In this document: piece after piece, positions 9,200 through 49,435 of the stretch
Position numbering within the stretch: the stretch's first letter is position 1
Layout: every line of letters begins with the position of its first letter
Source: Desulfurobacterium pacificum
Lineage (GTDB): Bacteria; Aquificota; Aquificia; Desulfurobacteriales; Desulfurobacteriaceae
Direction of reading: 5' to 3'
DNA length: 64,000 nt
NCBI RefSeq assembly: GCF_900182835.1
Contig: NZ_FXUB01000003.1
Span: 151,928 to 215,927, forward strand
Notes under the pieces: model-generated
Databases searched by the model: none
Seen by the model: the letters and a program-made list of their open reading frames with translations, nothing else
Told to the model about the DNA's origin: nothing
Program-made: the position numbers and the translations under genes

Positions 9200-9601
9200 A
9201 TGGAATCTCTTAAAGGTAAATTGGTGTTCGTTCAAACAGCAGGAGGAGAAAGCGTTATACCATCTTCGGGTATAATCGGCGTTGTGGAAGAGATAACTCC
9301 CGACTTTATCAGGCTCAAAGATGCGGGCGTTTTCGCTTTAGTTCCTACAACAAAAGGGGCGCAGGCTACAATTATGCCTATGGACCCAACTGCAAACGAA
9401 CCTGTAGAAGCTTACATTCTCAAAAGTCAGATTACTGCAATTGTTCCTGTTACTGATAAGTCAAGACTTAAAGAGTTTCACCAGCAGTTTAAGGCAGCAG
9501 CTGCAGGTATAGAACTTCCTTCACCTGGTTCTATTGACCTATCAAAGATTAAAGAGTTCCCCAAAGGGGGCGGAGATAAAGGAGGACTATCCATAACTTG
9601 A
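9200..9601 (+). CDS. Conserved-looking hypothetical protein, 133 aa
   Basis: I do not recognise the family. The first ~90 residues look like a small beta-rich domain (KGKLVFVQTAGGESVIPSSG, GVVEEITPDFIRLKDAG). A proline/glycine-rich linker and tail follow (PSPGSIDLSKIKEFPKGGG). It has no signal peptide or membrane segment. GGAGGAG precedes ATG 9200. It overlaps the sensor kinase gene by 4 nt, so a role tied to the NtrB/NtrC pair is possible but unproven. Confidence 0.75.
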   Translation: MESLKGKLVFVQTAGGESVIPSSGIIGVVEEITPDFIRLKDAGVFALVPTTKGAQATIMPMDPTANEPVEAYILKSQITAIVPVTDKSRLKEFHQQFKAAAAGIELPSPGSIDLSKIKEFPKGGGDKGGLSIT

Positions 9602-10578
9602 GAGCGGAAGATATCCTCTTTTCTATACCCTTCCCCGTTGTTATTACCGACGGGGAGGGGAAAATCCTCCACGCCAACCAAAAGTTTGAAACGTTCGTTA
9701 ACCGTTCCATAAAGTACCTTCAGGGTAAACCGCTATATTCCTTTTTCAAACATCAGGAAGACATAAAAAAGAAGATAGAGGAGTCTTACTCAAACTTAGT
9801 TGAAATCTTAGGATTTAAAACTGACGATTACTATCTGAACTTTGCACCTTTTTACGTTTCTTCCGTAGTAAAGGGAGTAATCGTTGTCGTTCAGCCCGTT
9901 GCGGAAAATCCGTTTGACGAGGATATTCTCCTTTTTCTGAAAGGGCTTTCTCACGAGATAAGGAATCCCCTCAGCGGCATTAAAGGAGCAGCTCGCCTCT
10001 TTCAAAAACTAAAGTGTTACGATGAAGAACTACTCAACGTTCTTATAGAAGAAACAGAGCGTATAGAAAGGCTCCTTAACAACGTAGTTAAAAGCTTTGA
10101 CTTTTCTTCCTTAAACTACGAACCTACCAACGTTCACAAAATAATTCAGAACGTTGTGAACCTTTTCAGGGAGCGTATAGAAACGGAAGATATAGAAGTA
10201 GTTTACCTTTTTGACCCTTCCCTGCCTGAAATTTCTGTTGACCCCGACAGGATAACTCAGGTTCTTATAAACTTTTTTAAGAACGCCCTTGAAGCTGTAG
10301 AAACTTCGGAGATTAAAAAGATTACCGTTGAAACCGGCTACGCCATTCACCCTTCCGGCTTTATTTTTATAAGATTAAAGGACACAGGCTGCGGTATGGA
10401 TGAGCAGGAGTTAAAGCAGTTTTTCGTTCCGTTCTTTACGACCAAAGAGAAGGGAAGCGGTTTGGGAACGTTTATCGCTTCGGAGATAGTGAAAAAACAC
10501 GGCGGCGAAGTGAAAGTGAAAAGTGAGAAAGGTAAAGGGACGGAAGTAACAATCTACCTGCCGATGAAGGGGTATTGA
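9598..10578 (+). CDS. NtrB-like PAS-domain sensor histidine kinase
   Basis: Soluble kinase: PAS-like domain (residues ~5-110), dimerisation/phosphoacceptor helix with His119 in LSHEIRNPLSGIKGA, and an HATPase_c domain (N-box LINFFKNALEA, G1 DTGCGMDEQ, G2 GSGLGTFIASEIV). No membrane segment, so it senses a cytoplasmic signal. TTG start overlapping the upstream TGA, with GGAGG about 12 nt before. Its partner regulator follows with a 1-nt overlap. Architecture resembles NtrB/GlnL, but no glnA or amtB gene is adjacent, so a nitrogen role is only one option. Confidence 0.9.
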   Translation: MRAEDILFSIPFPVVITDGEGKILHANQKFETFVNRSIKYLQGKPLYSFFKHQEDIKKKIEESYSNLVEILGFKTDDYYLNFAPFYVSSVVKGVIVVVQPVAENPFDEDILLFLKGLSHEIRNPLSGIKGAARLFQKLKCYDEELLNVLIEETERIERLLNNVVKSFDFSSLNYEPTNVHKIIQNVVNLFRERIETEDIEVVYLFDPSLPEISVDPDRITQVLINFFKNALEAVETSEIKKITVETGYAIHPSGFIFIRLKDTGCGMDEQELKQFFVPFFTTKEKGSGLGTFIASEIVKKHGGEVKVKSEKGKGTEVTIYLPMKGY

Positions 10579-11942
10579 TGGCAAAGATTTTGGTTGCAGA
10601 CGATGAGAAGAGTATAAGGATTGTTCTGAGAAAATTCCTTACCTCTCAGGGACACGAAGTAGTTGAGGCTTCTAACGGTGAAGAAGCTCTTTCCATTTTA
10701 AAGTCCGGAAACGTTGACCTTGCGTTTGTTGACGTTAAGATGCCCGGAAAGAGCGGTATAGAGATTTTGGATGAGGTGAAAGACGTTCCAATCGTTATCG
10801 TTACGGCTTACGGAACGATGGACTTTACCATTTCCGCTATGGAAAAGGGAGCTGTTGATTACATAACGAAACCTTTTTCCTTTGAGGATATAGAGACGGT
10901 TCTCAAAAAGGTTCTCTCTGTGCCTTCTCAAGAGGTAGAGGAGGAAAAACCCATAGAGGATGAGATAGTTGGAACAAGCAGAAAGATGCAGGAAGTTTTC
11001 AAACTTATAGGTAGGGTAGCCAAAAGCGATATAACCGTTTTAATAACCGGAGAGAGCGGAACGGGAAAAGAGCTTGTTGCTAAAGCGATTCACAGGTACT
11101 CCCACAGAAAGGATAAGCCATTTATTGCCGTTAACTGCGCAGCTTTGCCTCCAAACTTACTGGAAGCAGAACTGTTCGGTTATGAAAAAGGAGCTTTTAC
11201 GGGAGCTACTTCCACAAAGAAAGGACTCTTTGAGCAGGCAGACGGCGGAACGCTGTTTTTAGACGAGATTGGAGAGCTTGCACCAGAACTCCAGGCAAAA
11301 CTTTTAAGGGTTTTGCAGGAAAAGGAGATAAGAAGAGTAGGGGGAAGCAAAAACATAAAAGTTGACGTCAGGATAGTCGCTGCTACGAACCGCAATTTAG
11401 AAGAAGAGGTAAAGAAGGGTAAGTTTAGAGAGGATTTGTTTTTCAGGCTTAACGTTGTTAACGTTGAAATCCCGCCGTTGAGAGAAAGGAGGGAGGATAT
11501 TATTCCCCTTGCCCTTCACTTTATAAAGAAGTTTGCCAGAGAGTTCAAGCTTCCAGTAAAGGAACTTACGCCAGAAGCGGTAGAGTGGCTTGTTAACTAC
11601 GATTTTCCGGGAAACGTAAGAGAACTTGAAAATATGATTTTGAGAGCTATGGTTGTCTCTCCCGTTGACGTTATAGACGTTTCCGACCTGAAACCTTCTG
11701 CCGTTATGCCGTCTTCTCCTTCTTTTGAAGAGGCGATACGTAACTTTGTCGTTGATATCTTCACCGTTGAACAAAAGGAGAAGAACAACCTTTACGACCT
11801 TGTTGTTAAAGCTGCTGAAAGGATTTTAATCTCGGAAGTGTTAAAGTTCTGTAACTTCAATCAGGTTAAAGCGGCGAAAGTTTTAGGTATTCATAGGAAC
11901 ACTTTGAGAAAGAAGATAAAAGAGTTGGGGATAGGGAAGTAA
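10578..11942 (+). CDS. NtrC-family sigma-54-dependent response regulator
   Basis: Receiver domain with phospho-acceptor Asp52 (FVDVKMPG), Thr76 and Lys98. AAA+ domain with Walker A GESGTGKE, the sigma-54 contact loop GAFTGA, Walker B GGTLFLDEIGEL and a downstream arginine finger. C-terminal Fis-type HTH (NQVKAAKVLGIHRNTLRKKI). 454 aa. ATG 10578 overlaps the kinase stop codon by 1 nt (TGATG) and is preferred over TTG 10575. It activates RpoN promoters elsewhere; I found no convincing -24/-12 site in this window. Confidence 0.94.
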   Translation: MAKILVADDEKSIRIVLRKFLTSQGHEVVEASNGEEALSILKSGNVDLAFVDVKMPGKSGIEILDEVKDVPIVIVTAYGTMDFTISAMEKGAVDYITKPFSFEDIETVLKKVLSVPSQEVEEEKPIEDEIVGTSRKMQEVFKLIGRVAKSDITVLITGESGTGKELVAKAIHRYSHRKDKPFIAVNCAALPPNLLEAELFGYEKGAFTGATSTKKGLFEQADGGTLFLDEIGELAPELQAKLLRVLQEKEIRRVGGSKNIKVDVRIVAATNRNLEEEVKKGKFREDLFFRLNVVNVEIPPLRERREDIIPLALHFIKKFAREFKLPVKELTPEAVEWLVNYDFPGNVRELENMILRAMVVSPVDVIDVSDLKPSAVMPSSPSFEEAIRNFVVDIFTVEQKEKNNLYDLVVKAAERILISEVLKFCNFNQVKAAKVLGIHRNTLRKKIKELGIGK

Positions 11943-11965
11943 CAGTTTTTCTTATCTTCCCATAA

Positions 11966-11979
11966 TTGATTTTTATCAA
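11966..11979. promoter_or_regulatory. FNR/CRP-type operator (perfect TTGAT-N4-ATCAA)
   Basis: TTGAT TTTT ATCAA matches the FNR consensus exactly, within the longer palindrome ATTGATttttATCAAT (11965-11980). Its centre (11972.5) is about 42-47 bp upstream of the start expected from the -10 candidates TATTGT (12003-12008) or TAAAAT (12008-12013). That is the class II activator position. The target would be the ferredoxin gene at 12045. Confidence 0.6.
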
Positions 11980-12044
11980 TGCTAATTGCCTAATCTTGTA
12001 GATATTGTAAAATTGTTAATAAGGAAGTAGTTGAATTTGCTTAA

Positions 12045-12734
12045 ATGGAAGGTGTTATGAAGGAAGGGGATTTCGCAGAAAAGAAAAGTTTAATTCTCTG
12101 TCAGGACGGTTCTCCTTTTATTCCTTACTATCCTGCCGGAATCAATACCGATAAGTGTACAGGGTGCGGTGAGTGTGTGAAGGTCTGTCCGCAGAACTGC
12201 ATTGAACTTAAAGAGCAGAACGGTAAGTTGGTAGCTGTCATCGTTGATATGGAGTCCTGTATAGGCGACGGTATGTGCAGGCTTGTCTGCCCGGAAGATG
12301 CCTTTACCTGAGGCGTTTCCTGCTCCGGTTCGGGGAAGGTAGAGCTTTCAGAAGAGAATATCCTTTGCGATGAGAACGGCAACTACGCTTACCTTACTTT
12401 TGGCGGTAAACTTTACACCCCTGCTTATCTTCAGAATATTGATAGGAATTTGTGCGAGAACTGCGAGAAGTGTCTTGAAATGTGCGAAACGAGAGGACTT
12501 GATGAGGAGGGAAACGTAATTCCGGAGTTACCTGAGGTCTGCAACGGTTGTGGACATTGCGTTAACGTTTGCCCTGCAAAAGGTATAGAGGCTAAGCCCA
12601 TAAGCATTAAAGAGATGATAGAACGGTTCAGACGCTGGAAAAAGTCTCAATCGCATATAGACAGCGTTATATTGAGCTTACTTGAAATTTCTTCAAGCGG
12701 TGCGCTTCTTTTCAGCATGTTCGCTGCTTCGTGA
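12045..12734 (+). CDS. Polyferredoxin-type 4Fe-4S protein, candidate selenoprotein (in-frame UGA at codon 89)
   Basis: One frame runs from 12045 to 12734, broken only by TGA at 12309-12311; the 46 codons after it stay open into a second cysteine-rich half. Cluster motifs: C38-x2-C-x2-C-x3-C48P; a modified C72-x5-C78-x3-C82P (CIGDGMC, Asp where a Cys is usual); then, after the UGA, C137-x2-C-x2-C-x3-C147 and C166-x2-C-x2-C-x3-C176P. The UGA gives the local motif T-U-GVSC. A hairpin follows it (see 12309-12345), and selB is present at 47.5-49.4 kb. I therefore read this as a ~229-aa selenoprotein, probably an electron carrier. ATG 12057 is an alternative start. A true nonsense mutation or a sequencing error is less likely but possible. 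Its 3' end overlaps the convergent gene by 88 nt. Confidence 0.75.
12309..12345 (+). promoter_or_regulatory. Candidate bacterial SECIS element directly after UGA
   Basis: After UGA, the RNA can fold 12313-12345. The upper stem is CUCCG (12323-12327) with CGGGG (12331-12335), closed by loop GUU. The lower stem is CCU (12319-12321) with AGG (12337-12339), and further pairs G-C, C-G, U-G and U-A lie below, broken by single mismatches. The apical GU lies about 17 nt after UGA, within the usual bacterial SECIS window, and resembles the GGUC tip of E. coli fdhF. The fold was made by eye. Confidence 0.6.
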
Positions 12735-13471
12735 AGCGTTATTGGTCGTTTGGGGTTTAAGGATAGGTGGAGACAACGGGGAGCTTCTATAAAGTTTGAT
12801 AAGGGAATGAGTACTGAGGGCGGTAGTTTCCCCTGCAGTGAAGATATGAGCTGCTTTTTGAACGTTCTTACGTCTTCCCCTGCTAATTCGGCTTGCTTTC
12901 TTAAAAAGCCTTTTACTAATCCTTGGTCTCTATAGGTAAGTTCTAACTTTTTAAGTTTTAGGCGCGATGGTGTAGAAAGGTTCCCCTGTAGTTGAACGCC
13001 CAAGTTAATACTTCCTAAGTCTTTACCTTCTGCAGATAGGGATAGATTAACGTTATTTCCTGATATCAGGTAGATAATCGCAGCGTTTATTTTTACTTTG
13101 TTTCTATGGTAATCGGTGAGTGAGAGCATTTCTTTCATATAGGGGAGGTTTGAGGAAAGAGTTGCATCAGCTATAGATACGGAGAGTGAGGGGGGGATTT
13201 TGGAAACGCTGAAAGGTAGGTCAATTTTAATTTTTCCTATCTCTGCCGAGTAGTTCTGGTAGGAGAATTTAAGGTCGTCTATCGTAATTTCGTTCTTTAT
13301 CAGTGAGTAATTGATTTTTTTGTAGGAAACGCTTCCGGGGAATTTGTCTAAGGCGTGGTTTACTTTGTTCTGGATTTCGTACTTTATCAGCGTTTGGAGG
13401 GCGAAGTAGGAAGATATTAAAGCTCCTGCAAAGAGCAGGAGCGTGATTATTAGCCTTTCTTTTTTACTCAT
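12647..13471 (-). CDS. Membrane-anchored AsmA-like / DUF-type envelope protein
   Basis: 274 aa. One N-terminal membrane helix (residues ~7-27) and a large beta-rich extracytoplasmic part (repeated patterns such as INYSLIKNEITIDDLKFSY and NVNLSLSAEGKDLGSINLGV). This resembles AsmA/DUF748-type lipid-handling proteins, but I am not certain of the family. ATG overlaps the hemE stop codon by 4 nt, so it is last in the prfA-hemE operon. Its end overlaps the ferredoxin gene tail to tail. Confidence 0.75.
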   Translation of the reverse strand: MSKKERLIITLLLFAGALISSYFALQTLIKYEIQNKVNHALDKFPGSVSYKKINYSLIKNEITIDDLKFSYQNYSAEIGKIKIDLPFSVSKIPPSLSVSIADATLSSNLPYMKEMLSLTDYHRNKVKINAAIIYLISGNNVNLSLSAEGKDLGSINLGVQLQGNLSTPSRLKLKKLELTYRDQGLVKGFLRKQAELAGEDVRTFKKQLISSLQGKLPPSVLIPLSNFIEAPRCLHLSLNPKRPITLHEAANMLKRSAPLEEISSKLNITLSICD

Positions 13472-14517
13472 TGTTCTCTTAGTTCTCTGCTGATTTTGTG
13501 GACTGTGTCAACTAAGAATTTAGCCTTTTTAGGGTCTGTTGGGGGCAGGATGCCGTGTCCTAAGTTGAAGATATGTCCGCGCGCCTTTTGGGCGGAGGTG
13601 AGGATTTTTCTTACCTGCTTTTCAATTAATTCCTCACTGGCAAACAGCATTACCGGGTCAAGGTTGCCCTGTATAGATTTATCAATTATCTGAAGAGCTT
13701 TGTCTATTTCTGTTTTCCAGTCAAGCCCTATTACATCAACGTTAAGCCTGTTGTTTACCTCTAACAGGTGTCCTGCGTTTACTCCAAAGTGAATTATCGG
13801 CGTCTCCGGGTGTCTTTTCTTTAGTTCGTTTACGATTTTTTCCGTATATGAAAAAACATATCTTTCGTAGTCGTCTCTGGACAGCACACCTATCCATGAG
13901 TCAAAAATCTGGACTAAGTCAACGCCTGCTTTTATCTGAGCGGATAAGTACTCTATCACTGTTTGAGTTAACTTTGTCATTAAAGTATTCCATAGCTTCT
14001 CATCGTTCCACATGGTTGATTTTGCAGCTATGTAGTTCTTTGAGCTTCCGCCTTCCAATATGTAGCTTGCCAGGGTGAACGGCGCGCCGGAAAAACCGAT
14101 TAGCGGTCTGTCTGTTAACTTTTCTTTTATTAATTGAATGGTTTCTAATACGTAGGGTAGGTCTTTTTCAGGTTCGGGGATTTTTAGTCTTTGAGCGTCT
14201 TCTACAGTTTCTACTTTTGGTTCTAAAACTGGTCCTTTACCTTCAACGAAAGAAACGTTTATTCCCATCTTTTCGACGGGAACTAAGATATCGGAAAAGA
14301 GAATAGCAGCGTCAACGCCGATTTCATCTATCGGAATAAGCGTTACCTCGGCGGCTAACTCAGGATTTTTGCACAAATCCATAAAGCTTCCTGCTTTCTC
14401 TCTGATTTTTCTATAACGTTCTGAGTACCTTCCAGCCTGCCTCATTATCCATATAGGCGTGTATTCAGTTTTTTCTCCTCTTGCAGCTTTTAGAATTGGG
14501 TGGTTTTTTAAATCCAT
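13468..14517 (-). CDS. hemE: Uroporphyrinogen decarboxylase
   Basis: Converts uroporphyrinogen III to coproporphyrinogen III. Signatures: PIWIMRQAGRYSERY near the N-terminus and the substrate-pocket stretch GFSGAPFTLASYILEGG. I use ATG 14517 ([12 protein letters not shown]), which overlaps the upstream stop as TAATG and has GGGAG 7 nt before. A longer frame reading from 14565 lies inside the upstream gene and does not match the family. ~349 aa, normal. Confidence 0.95.
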   Translation of the reverse strand: MDLKNHPILKAARGEKTEYTPIWIMRQAGRYSERYRKIREKAGSFMDLCKNPELAAEVTLIPIDEIGVDAAILFSDILVPVEKMGINVSFVEGKGPVLEPKVETVEDAQRLKIPEPEKDLPYVLETIQLIKEKLTDRPLIGFSGAPFTLASYILEGGSSKNYIAAKSTMWNDEKLWNTLMTKLTQTVIEYLSAQIKAGVDLVQIFDSWIGVLSRDDYERYVFSYTEKIVNELKKRHPETPIIHFGVNAGHLLEVNNRLNVDVIGLDWKTEIDKALQIIDKSIQGNLDPVMLFASEELIEKQVRKILTSAQKARGHIFNLGHGILPPTDPKKAKFLVDTVHKISRELREQ

Positions 14518-15614
14518 TACGCTTCTCCCTGCTGTTTTTTCATTCTTATTGGAACGTATCTGCATATGGGGTCTTCCTGCATATAATCACCGTATTCCCA
14601 GTATGCCCTTACTCTACAACCGTTGCATATCTTAACGTATTCGCAAACACCGCACCTTCCTTTGTATTCTTCAATTTTTCTCATGTCCTGCATGATTTTT
14701 GATTCAAACCACGCTTTATCGAATGGCACGTCAAAAACGTTTATATCGGATATCGGGAAGTAGCTGCAGGGTCTTAACCAGCCGTGGCAATCTATGTAGG
14801 CGATGGACTGCCCTGCTACACAACCTTTACCACCGCCCGTTCCGAATACCAAGTTGCGCCTTTTTAGGTCAAGTCCATCTCTTTTGGCGTTCTGGTTAAA
14901 GATTCTGTAATAGTGAGGGGCGCACGTTGGACGGACTAAGATTGTATTGTCGCCTTTCAGAATTAGCTCTTTTTCCAACTCGTAGTGCCAGTTTAGCCAG
15001 TATTCTGCTTCTTCTGCATTTAAGAGTTCTGCGTTTGCTTCTTCTCCCCTTCCAACGGGAAGAACGATAAACATATACCAGGCTTTAGCTCCTAACTCTC
15101 TTGCTTTTTTGTAAACGTTGGGGATGTCAAAGGCGTTTCGCTTTGTGAAAGAAGAGTTTATAAGAAACGGAATGTCGTACTTTTTGAAGAGTTCAATGGC
15201 GTTCATTACGCCTTCAAACGCACCGGGTTGCTTCCTGAAATCATCGTGTATTTCGGGTGTTGAGCCATCAAGAGAAAGGGATACCATTCTTATTCCGGTT
15301 CTTTTCATCTCTTTGCAAACTTCGTCGTCAACTAACGTTCCGTTTGTTGCCATGCACATTCTAAAGCCTTTTTCCGTTCCGTAGGCTGCTAAATCCCATA
15401 CATCGTCTCTTAAAAGGGGTTCGCCGCCTGTCAGGACGATTGTTGGTTTGGCGATTTTCTCTATGTCATCCATCAACTTTTTTCCATCTTCAAGTGAAAA
15501 ATCACCCTGTTCCGATTCCATCGTTGAAGCGGAACGGCAGTGGATGCAGTTTAAATTGCACCTTCTCGTTATCTCCCAGGCTATCCATTTGGGCAGAAAT
15601 TCATTCTTTTCCAT
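14517..15614 (-). CDS. Radical SAM/SPASM protein, NirJ/AhbC/AhbD-like (heme biosynthesis)
   Basis: 365 aa. The radical SAM cluster motif CNLNCIHC (C-x3-C-x2-C, residues ~19-26) is followed by TGGEPLLR. The C-terminal SPASM-type region has [22 protein letters not shown] and a late Cys (DPICRY). This layout is typical of the NirJ/AhbC/AhbD enzymes that modify heme side chains. Coupling to hemE (1-nt overlap) supports a tetrapyrrole role. If AhbD-like, it would decarboxylate Fe-coproporphyrin III to heme. A peptide-maturase function is the main alternative. Confidence 0.8.
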
Positions 15615-46649: not shown

Positions 46650-47528
46650 TTATAGGAAGTTTTTAATGAGAAGTAGGTAGAGGGGGAAGAGAAGGGTAGA
46701 GATGAAGACGATTGTGGCGGCGGTTTGGGGGGAATTTTTGAACTTTTCGCAAAGAACGTAGTTTAGGATTGCTGAAGGAAGGGATGACTGAACGATTATT
46801 ACCTTTTTGGCTGTTGTCGGGCAGGGGATAATTGACACTGTTAAAAGAGCAGCGATTGTTCCGCCGAAGAAGCGAACTGCCGTTGCTACGATGCCAACTT
46901 TTAGTTCTTTTGGCACTATTTTTGAAAGGCTTATTCCAATTGAAACTAACATAAGAGGTAGGCTTGCGTTTCCGCTCATCTCTATCATTTTGAGAATTCC
47001 TGGCGGAAGGGAAACGTTTTTTAAAAGTAGAGAGAGGGTGAGGGCGGGGAGGAGAGGGATTTTGATGGCTGAAATCACAGCGTTTTTAAAGTTTTCTCTT
47101 TGCAGAATAACTATGCCTAAACTGAAGTGATAAACAGCCATTGCTACCATGAAACTTAAAGCGTAGGGTAGTCCTTTTTCACCAAACATCAGGTAAATTA
47201 GAGGAATTCCTAAATATCCTGCATTCATAACGGTGGCTGAGAGTTCAAATGCTTCGTTTTTTGTTTTTAAAAAGAGTCTTTCAGCCAGAATTGAGATGAG
47301 GAAGACCAGCGCAAATACTAAAAGAGCTGAGGCAAACATACAGGTAAGGTTTTGAGCGTTTAAGGAGATTTTTCTGAACGAGTAGAAAATGAGGGCAGGG
47401 GCAAAAACGTAAACAACGATTGTGGAAATTGTATCGGTTTGGACGTCAGGTTTTATTCTACCTATTGCGTATCCGACAGATATAAGCAGGTATAGGGGAA
47501 AGAGAACGTTTATTATCAGGTTTTCCAT
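46650..47528 (-). CDS. AEC-family (auxin efflux carrier-like) membrane transporter
   Basis: 292 aa with about nine or ten hydrophobic segments; the AEC pattern includes LISVGYAIGRIKPD, TVMNAGYLGIPLIYLMFG and NASLPLMLVSIGISLSK. It probably exports a small organic acid; the substrate is unknown. It overlaps selB by 13 nt. Confidence 0.86.
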   Translation of the reverse strand: MENLIINVLFPLYLLISVGYAIGRIKPDVQTDTISTIVVYVFAPALIFYSFRKISLNAQNLTCMFASALLVFALVFLISILAERLFLKTKNEAFELSATVMNAGYLGIPLIYLMFGEKGLPYALSFMVAMAVYHFSLGIVILQRENFKNAVISAIKIPLLPALTLSLLLKNVSLPPGILKMIEMSGNASLPLMLVSIGISLSKIVPKELKVGIVATAVRFFGGTIAALLTVSIIPCPTTAKKVIIVQSSLPSAILNYVLCEKFKNSPQTAATIVFISTLLFPLYLLLIKNFL

Positions 47529-49435
47529 TCTAAATTACCGGCTACTCTTTCGTTACCTTTTCTCACGGTAATGCCTTTGCTGTCTAAAAATTCTAACAGC
47601 GGAATTGCAAACTTACGGGAGACGTTCAGGTAGTCTTTAAACTCTCCGACTGTAAGCGTTTCTTTGTTCTTAAAGTGATTTTTGAGTATTGAAACGATTT
47701 CTTTCATGGCTTCTGGCGAAAACAGGTGTTCGCCGATTTTTACAAAGCCTTTTTGAAGCTGGAGATATGACGCTATTAAGTTTGCTTCCTCTTCAGGAAT
47801 TTCTATTTCTTTGGCTAATTCTTTTACCTCTGGCGGCGTGAACCGGCTGTTTCTGACTACTTCGACTATTTTCTCTACTTTGCTTTCAAAGGGTGTTCCT
47901 TCGTGGTGTGGTGTGAAGCCTTTTAGTTTCAGGACTGCGCCGATTTCTTCTATCTTTCCTTCCTTTAACAGTTCGCTGATGGCTTGAGAAAACATCTCTG
48001 GAGGTGCAGAGAGAGATGTTTTAAGGGATTCGCGGTTGATTCCTTCCGATATGGGAAACTTTTTGTGGTGCTGTGAAAGGGCGGTGAGGATTTGCTCCTT
48101 CAGTTTCTCTTTAAATTCTGCCGGATAGAGCTTTTTATCGGAAATGGTGATTGTTCCGCTGTCTGTTAGTTCTTTAATTAGCTTTTGGGCTTTTTCGGGT
48201 GGTATGTTGAGTAGCTGGGTTAGGGATTTGTCTGTAAGTTTTCCAGGGAACGTTTTTATCAGGTGTATTGCCTTTTCTTTTTCGCTTCCTTCGGTAAGTT
48301 TTTTTAGGAATGCCGTTTTTTCTTTTCTGAACTTGCGTCTGAATTTCCTTTCAGGAAGCGGAAAAACGATTTTTCCTCCGCCTATAACTCTTGCCGGCGA
48401 GTAGTTTCTTATAACGAACCTGTCGTCGTAAACGGGAACGATTTCTTCCTTTAAGCGTATTTGGGCGAGGGCGCTTTCGCCGGGTAGGAGTTCGTCTTTA
48501 TCTATTAAGAAAACTTCGCCTTCTGTTTCTTTTGTGAGGTGGTGGAAGTGGATTTTGTGCCCTGGTTGGACGATTACATCTGCATCTTTTGAAAGAGAGA
48601 GTTCAACGTCAACGATTTTTGTGGGTTTTAAGTATCCCGGGGTGGCGATTACGTCGCCCCTTTCAACGTCTTCTTTTGAGACATCTGAAAGGTTAAGTGC
48701 CGTTCTCTGTCCTGCTAACGCTTCTTCTCTGTTTTTTCCGTGAACCTGAATGTTCCTTACCTTTACCGTTCTACCTTCCGGCAGTATTTCTACTGTATCG
48801 CCTACTTTTACTTTTCCGCTTAACAGCGTTCCTGTTATGACGGTGCCAAATCCTTTAACGGTAAAGGAACGGTCAACGGGAAGTCTTAAAATACCTTCTG
48901 TCGTTTTCGGCTCTACAGTTTGCGCTATCCTGTCTATCTCTTTAACGAGTTCCTTTATTCCTTCGTCGGTTTTTGAGGATACTGCAATTAAAGGTGCGTT
49001 TTCTAAGAACGTTCCTTTTACGAAATCTTTTACATCTTCCTTTACCAGTTCAAGCCACTCTTCATCTACCGTGTCCTTTTTGGTTAGAACGATTATCCCT
49101 TTTTTCGTTCCAAGGGTCTGGCAGACTGTAAGATGCTCTTTTGTCTGGGGCATTACGCCTTCATCTGCTGCTATTACAAAGAGGACTAAATCTATACCGG
49201 AAGCACCTGCTAACATGTTTTTTATGAACTTTTCGTGTCCAGGGACGTCAACGATACCGGCAAAGATGCCGGAGGGCAGTTCAAGGTTGGCAAAACCTAT
49301 GTCAATGGTCATTCCTCTCTTCTTTTCTTCTTCCCAGCGGTCTGTATCTATACCGGTGAGGGCTTTTATAAGCGTTGTTTTGCCGTGGTCTATGTGCCCT
49401 GCCGTTCCGATAACGATGAACTTTTTACTTTGCAT
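47516..49435 (-). CDS. selB: Selenocysteine-specific translation elongation factor SelB
   Basis: 639 aa. EF-Tu-like G domain: [32 protein letters not shown], and a TKKD motif. Domains 2-3 follow to ~residue 350. A C-terminal series of winged helices (~400-639; [35 protein letters not shown]) binds SECIS hairpins. Length and layout separate it from EF-Tu. Its presence shows that this organism can read UGA as selenocysteine. It overlaps rny by 11 nt. selA, selC and selD are not in the window. Confidence 0.95.

Follow-up and report, generated by a model that had tools for sequence, protein, structure and literature searches.

A predicted selenocysteine-containing double ferredoxin in the Desulfurobacteriaceae

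How is a UGA codon read when it stands in the middle of a frame that is otherwise open and encodes cysteine cluster motifs on both sides of it? This question is raised by a gene in a 64,000-nucleotide stretch of the Desulfurobacterium pacificum genome (the window, to whose positions the coordinates below refer). The original prediction, made from the sequence of the window, described a single frame with four cysteine cluster motifs and one TGA at 12309, and proposed that the TGA encodes selenocysteine (Sec). The description is accurate: the frame at 12045-12734 is interrupted only by TGA 12309-12311 and by its final stop. Full-length relatives are found in 18 of the 22 Desulfurobacteriaceae genomes, representing six of the seven genera, and amount to 19 copies (two in genome G008). 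Because the layout recurs in all of them, a single frame carrying a TGA at this point is not a chance arrangement. We consider it likely that 12057-12734 encodes one two-module ferredoxin, with the UGA read as Sec; the protein is predicted to contain a redox-active selenol and four Fe-S clusters.

Layout of the frame

The features of the gene are listed below. Residues are numbered from 12045, which makes the Sec residue 89; counted from the ATG at 12057 it is residue 85 of 225.

12057..12734, + strand: predicted selenoprotein coding sequence, 225 amino acids, from ATG 12057 to stop TGA 12732-12734
12156..12188, + strand: cluster motif 1, C38-x2-C41-x2-C44-x3-C48
12198..12200, + strand: Cys52, an extra cysteine outside the motifs; Cys codon in 18/19 copies, TGA in one (L033)
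12258..12290, + strand: cluster motif 2, C72-x2-D75-x2-C78-x3-C82P, in which Asp replaces the second Cys
12309..12311, + strand: in-frame UGA at codon 89 from 12045 (85 from 12057), predicted to encode Sec; TGA in 19/19 copies
12310..12348, + strand: predicted hairpin of the bacterial SECIS type; coordinates are those of the paired part of the 45-nt fold
12321..12323, + strand: Cys93, found in every one of the 19 copies (U-x3-C) and absent from one-module Cys relatives
12453..12485, + strand: cluster motif 3, C137-C140-C143-C147
12540..12572, + strand: cluster motif 4, C166-C169-C172-C176

The frame had originally been taken to begin at 12045. The ATG at 12057 is more likely to be the start, as it is preceded at a distance of 4 bases by GGAAGG, and a relative from the same genus (L007/L012) has an identical ATG in the same context, which there directly follows an in-frame TAA. 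Position 12045 is in frame, but a start there is not conserved in that relative.

The unusual second motif that had been pointed out, C-x5-C-x3-CP with Asp for the second Cys, followed by T-U-G-V-S-C, corresponds exactly to the sequence. The UGA lies seven residues past C82, between ferredoxin module 1 (motifs 1 and 2) and module 2 (motifs 3 and 4). Pfam matches of the predicted protein are to Fe-S domains of the ferredoxin type. Structure prediction from an alignment of 59 rows gave a two-module protein with pLDDT 84.2 and pTM 0.77; prediction from a 19-row alignment was poorer, with pLDDT 60.7. The matches listed by fold searches were to chains with ferredoxin-type domains by title, and covered mostly residues 27-127. 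At its 3′ end the frame is overlapped by 88 bases by a convergent gene (12647-13471, - strand), which has no NCBIfam match and 24-33% identity to proteins from outside the genus.

How the UGA is read

Codon 89 is TGA in every one of the 19 copies and never TAA or TAG. Purifying selection acts to a similar degree on either side of it: pN/pS among the 19 copies was 0.217 before the site, 0.238 over codons +11 to +45 and 0.220 in the C-terminal half. Over the 20 codons that follow the site, within which the hairpin lies, the ratio was 0.382 and synonymous differences were fewer (pS 0.585, versus 0.781 and 0.804). In each of four regions tested pN was lower than pS in all 171 pairs of copies, and third codon positions were the most variable on both sides of the UGA.

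One copy, L033, has an additional TGA (L009:3702-3704; this is the second copy in G008) in place of the otherwise invariant Cys52 codon. The database protein P0048 has the same residues as L009 from codon 52 to the Sec site, but has Cys at 52. The 48 bases 3′ of this second TGA fold with -7.7 kcal/mol. It may be a variant, an error or a sign of decay.

A profile search of 5.8 billion proteins, in which 3755 candidates were scored, gave 26 matches at E 1e-6, and no full-length two-module Cys form was found among those proteins. In this the double ferredoxin differs from nearly all selenoprotein families, which have Cys homologues (PMC12013277). Eight strong matches were C-terminal fragments of 108-131 amino acids, and the remainder were weak matches to ferredoxins or polyferredoxins. 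In the polyferredoxins P0010-P0022 and P0024-P0027 the alignment falls into scattered ferredoxin pieces; P0023 covers the Sec site and has no Cys there. All 30 records for module 1 (P0028-P0057) end exactly at the Sec site; the N-terminal half records include Theam_1103 of Thermovibrio ammonificans, Dester_0818 of Desulfurobacterium thermolithotrophum and one from Balnearium lithotrophicum. Homologues consisting of two separate proteins had been named at the outset as an outcome that would count against Sec. The public records do split the gene in this way, but annotation of the TGA as a stop would yield the same division, and the uniform end of the N-terminal records at the Sec site is what such annotation would give.

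P0059 and P0060, like P0056 and P0057 among the 30 records above, are ferredoxins whose ends coincide exactly with the Sec site, and these four could hide further UGA-Sec genes. One of the eight strong matches, P0009, is a distant relative of the C-terminal half with 119 amino acids, from a contig of 945 bases. Its frame extends four residues beyond the Sec position and contains neither Cys nor Sec there, having Tyr at the Sec position and Leu at position 93. It could be a free-standing C-terminal half, a frameshift or something else.

A weaker match, P0058, led to 20 one-module ferredoxins (P0058 and P0061-P0079), three of which are from Hadarchaea or Hadesarchaea by record name. All 20 have C48, C52, C72, D75, C78 and C82, and in each the residue aligned with the Sec is Cys; they thus share a CxGDCxC motif, the additional Cys and a further Cys behind the second motif, and none has C93. 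The alignment of this Cys with the Sec requires a two-residue gap before the Cys. Since the search that uncovered this family started from a member of it, the count of 20 out of 20 is a property of the one-module family and not of a blind sample. Alignment of homologues at codon 89 had been suggested as a check on the Sec reading. The outcome was TGA throughout the two-module copies and Cys in distant relatives, all of the one-module kind. A sense codon at this position, which would have spoken against Sec if it were not for Cys, was seen in no close relative.

The 3′ side of the UGA can fold into the hairpin listed above, with the apical stem-loop CUCC-GGUUC-GGGG at 12323-12335. A strict stem-loop of -8.8 kcal/mol or lower was obtained for 16 of the 19 copies (for example UCCUCC-AGUUC-GGAGGA). 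As a control we used the TGA stops of 80 neighbouring ORFs (76 distinct), of which two reach -5 and none reaches -7.5; among synonymous recodings, 10.8% reach -5 and 3.5% reach -7.5. The strict stem test was weak in three copies, two of them from the window's own genus (L001 and L012) and the third L028; the window copy is included in these. Their strict hairpins have -3.9 (L001), -2.6 (L012) and -4.0 (L028), values that 21%, 16% and 7.7% of synonymous recodings respectively do as well as, and the best strict hairpin of L012 differs from the expected one. The 45-nt folds of the same three copies have -15.1, -11.3 and -8.6. For L013 and L033 the natural value is reached by 4-5% of recodings, and their loop has GGA rather than GU. 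An apical loop of the CC-(A/G)GU-GG type is present in 17 of the 19 copies, and the two G008 copies have the loop CC-AGGAU-GG.

The published bSECIS model (PMC13188914) has a loop of 3-9 nt, an upper stem of 4-16 bp, G within the first two loop positions, a spacing of 16-37 nt from the UGA and an MFE of -7.5 or lower. The window copy agrees with this model, with a 5-bp upper stem, a GUU loop, a spacing of 16 and a 45-nt MFE of -15.1. The expected loop of L012 begins 15 nt past the UGA, 1 nt short of the published range. A search of the whole window with Rfam at gathering scores gave RNase P and one tRNA only, and no SECIS match.

The serine at +5, which lies in the stem, is encoded by TCC in all 19 copies, the sole single-codon column among 63 columns with an invariant residue; elsewhere in the 19 genes TCC accounts for 20 of 138 serine codons. 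Judged by eye, the stem letters hardly vary among copies that stay in register, and MAFFT set L014 out of register in the hairpin alignment. Support for the hairpin comes from this synonymous-codon invariance, from the control TGA stops and from hairpins re-formed after codon changes (L001, L012 and L014). The G-U apical loop resembles those of the family's own Sec genes: CCC-GGUC-GGG follows the TGA in 8/8 SelD loci folded, and (G/A)GCC-GGUCU-GGC(C/U) is found in both Sec-containing formate dehydrogenase (Sec-FDH) genes, those of G009 and G014.

Decoding of the UGA as Sec would also require factors supplied in trans. The loci of selB and of the two Sec-FDH genes are as follows.

47516..49435, - strand: selB, Sec-specific elongation factor, needed in trans; TIGR00475 432.7 bits, cut-off 242.25
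G009:C1:1333532-1335229: Sec-FDH, one TGA
G014:C38:17465-19156: Sec-FDH, one TGA

The selB gene had already been recognised in the original prediction, and its profile score bears this out. The source genome also contains selA, selD (itself with one TGA) and tRNA-Sec (79.7 bits at G000:C3:78891-78981). Across the family, tRNA-Sec scores above cut-off in 20 of the 22 genomes, and SelD has one TGA in all 21 copies above cut-off. Two of the 18 carriers of the double ferredoxin, G006 and G021, have no tRNA-Sec over the cut-off, yet have SelD with a TGA. Family-wide searches for Sec genes covered SelD and FDH. At 1e-100, Sec-FDH is present in just 2 of the 22 genomes; the other molybdoenzyme matches listed for the family genomes have no inner stop, and none of the ferredoxin-domain matches in the source genome has an inner TGA except the gene itself. 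Thus SelD and the double ferredoxin are the only Sec users detected in most family genomes in searches for SelD and FDH, and because Sec-FDH is so rare, these two may be what maintains the Sec machinery there. The g4 genomes G010-G013 (L076-L079) keep tRNA-Sec and TGA-bearing SelD and do not have the double ferredoxin gene. They also have no TIGR01591 match at 1e-100, whereas all 18 carriers have one, a contrast that comes from a single clade.

Two other readings of the TGA have to be set against these results. If the TGA were an ordinary stop and module 2 were translated from its own downstream start, the gene would encode two separate small ferredoxins. The annotation of two proteins in public records agrees with this, as does the TTG, GTG or ATG that is present 8 or 11 codons past the TGA in 11 of the 19 copies; P0009 continues beyond the site with neither Cys nor Sec, as would be expected of a C-terminal half that stands alone. 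However, in eight copies there is no ATG, GTG or TTG within the first 47 codons after the TGA, and in four none within the first 69. The 47-codon stretch is conserved under purifying selection in the same frame, which argues against a separate C-terminal gene. Nor would two ferredoxins account for the invariant Cys93-Ser94 directly 3′ of the TGA, for a stop that is TGA in 19/19 copies and never TAA or TAG, or for the hairpin that comes next. We rejected the two-protein reading on the invariant TGA, the startless conserved stretch and the hairpin, and regard it as very improbable.

Still less credible, to the point of being negligible, is a nonsense mutation, a sequencing error or a UGA read as some other amino acid. 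The second TGA in L033/L009 indicates that errors or decay do occur, but the same TGA in 19 copies from six genera, with pN/pS near 0.22 on both sides, rules out mutation or error for the family as a whole. UGA is not a general sense codon, because TGA terminates 80 neighbouring ORFs of at least 100 amino acids. Since the frame reads on as a single Fe-S protein and all copies keep the UGA, it is very likely translated as Sec. The invariant TGA, the continuous conservation, the SECIS-like hairpin and the aligned Cys in the distant one-module ferredoxins all support the selenoprotein reading first put forward, and selenium insertion at the internal UGA can be predicted with high confidence from these sequence data.

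Possible role of the selenocysteine

With SelA, SelB, SelD and tRNA-Sec present and a hairpin just downstream, Sec would be delivered by SelB at the UGA. The predicted function of the double ferredoxin is redox electron transfer, with a selenol centre beside the Asp-bearing cluster. Module 2 would feed electrons in, and module 2 together with both clusters of module 1 would pass them on to Sec89. Close to the Asp-bearing cluster, Sec89 could form with Cys52 a selenium-sulfur pair that can be reduced; the set of Cys52, Asp75 and Cys or Sec at position 89 is common to the one-module family. Cys93, which occurs in the two-module form only, may be the partner instead. The electrons might then be handed to a thiol, a polysulfide or a protein partner in sulfur- and hydrogen-based metabolism. 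As a prediction from sequence, the role of Sec as a redox centre is tentative. A little more doubtful is the fuller proposal that Sec89 binds the Asp-substituted [4Fe-4S] site or exchanges electrons with it directly, the Sec being fixed throughout the vent lineage, its Cys counterpart lying in one-module ferredoxins of other microbes, and the double ferredoxin being, with SelD, the only Sec user detected in most family genomes in the SelD and FDH searches. If the double ferredoxin does contain Sec, it becomes possible to ask directly whether selenium serves as neighbour or ligand to an Asp-substituted [4Fe-4S] cluster in a natural ferredoxin.

The main rival to the redox pair is a permanent ligand role, in which the selenolate, and not Asp75, would complete a site-differentiated cluster of module 1 and tune its potential or lability without catalysis. 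The second Cys of motif 2 is missing in 19/19 two-module copies and Cys89 occurs together with Asp75 in 20/20 one-module relatives, and both observations favour the ligand role. Against this, the Sec is seven residues past the last cluster Cys, and Cys52 competes for the ligand role. We know of no ordinary ferredoxin with a ligand seven residues past its last cluster Cys, and on balance consider the ligand role rather unlikely. The UGA might alternatively act as a selenium-dependent switch, such that module 1 alone, a complete two-cluster ferredoxin, is made without selenium and the two-module form with it, the ratio reporting selenium supply. The end of module 1 almost coincides with the end of the one-module relatives, as this would have it, but some truncated product is to be expected from any Sec gene, and we regard a switch as improbable. 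Sec in a reducible pair is the reading that we prefer among these.

Relation to known families and genomic setting

Module 1 matches the profile TIGR02936 (ferredoxin III, nif-specific, fdxN_nitrog) over almost its whole length, positions 4-88 of 91. The scores, 70.6 bits for the whole protein and 53.4 for module 1 alone, are below the cut-off of 80.55. The one-module Cys relatives and the double ferredoxin have in common Cys52, Asp75 and Cys or Sec at the same site; compared with these relatives and with TIGR02936, the protein described here has Sec for Cys, a second ferredoxin module fused behind and Cys93 as a new residue. FwdF/MvhB-type polyferredoxins and the C-terminal ferredoxin of HdrA ranked among the best matches in PDB, both by sequence and by structure, with scores that fall short of the family cut-offs (42 of 375 bits for FwdF, NF042909; 58.2 of 1100 bits for HdrA, NF040770).

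A 2026 inventory (PMC13188914) has 119 selenoprotein families and subfamilies in its Table 1, and the double-ferredoxin layout is absent from that table. Of its entries, those described in the most similar terms are HgcB and NF005503 (PMC13188914), and the double ferredoxin scores below both profile cut-offs. HgcB, the mercury-methylation ferredoxin (NF040864), is likewise a two-cluster ferredoxin with Sec forms, but it has one module and a different Sec motif, GVGU (PMC13188914), and the double ferredoxin scores 45.6 bits against its cut-off of 99. NF005503, an Fe-S cluster domain-containing selenoprotein, also combines ferredoxin-type clusters with Sec; its motif is UxxC (PMC13188914), as compared with U-x3-C here, and the score is 36.1 bits against a cut-off of 252. 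The Sec motif listed for HdrA is CxxU (PMC13188914).

Literature searches for Sec ferredoxins or polyferredoxins and for the locus tags gave no paper recognisable as describing the protein. The family would be new relative to that inventory (PMC13188914) and to the literature searched, in keeping with the initial statement that no selenoprotein family of this layout was known. If real, it adds a selenoprotein family of a kind that Cys-pair and annotation pipelines would miss, since no full-length Cys homologue was found and the records are split in two. Among its carriers, Thermovibrio ammonificans and Desulfurobacterium thermolithotrophum are cultured vent thermophiles, so that the prediction is open to experiment.

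The four family genomes without the gene all belong to genus g4, and a search of 136 genomes of the phylum gave no further full-length relative at E 1e-9. A separate scan of GTDB contigs gave five loci, by record name from Desulfurobacteriaceae, Desulfurobacterium and Thermovibrio. Mapped on to the protein tree, the labels of the six genera require 5 changes, the minimum possible, compared with a mean of 11.6 for shuffled labels; g3 alone needs 2 changes, and 8 of the 16 inner branches are open. Two upstream genes provide context:

9598..10578, + strand: histidine kinase, conserved upstream neighbour
10575..11942, + strand: NtrC-like sigma-54 response regulator, directly upstream

Among 15 loci compared, the regulator is kept in 14, the kinase in 13, the convergent unknown gene in 14 and hemE in 14; of these loci L011 and L063 are on the same contig, L056 and L007 end upstream at contig or locus ends, and L052 is missing the downstream pair. 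The four g4 genomes also have the kinase-regulator block; in them another ORF of about 420 amino acids begins 16-34 bases behind it and therefore leaves no room for the gene.

The NtrC-like regulator next to the gene might control it through sigma-54; the window has 24 loose matches to sigma-54 sites (30.11 expected by chance), none of them between 10593 and 17333. Sigma-70-like matches at 11939-11966 and 11986-12013 are consensus matches only. Farther downstream, at 13468-15614 on the - strand, hemE (436 bits, cut-off 302.95) lies beside an AhbD-like radical SAM protein, which scores 385.9 bits with the heme b synthase profile, under the cut-off of 500.
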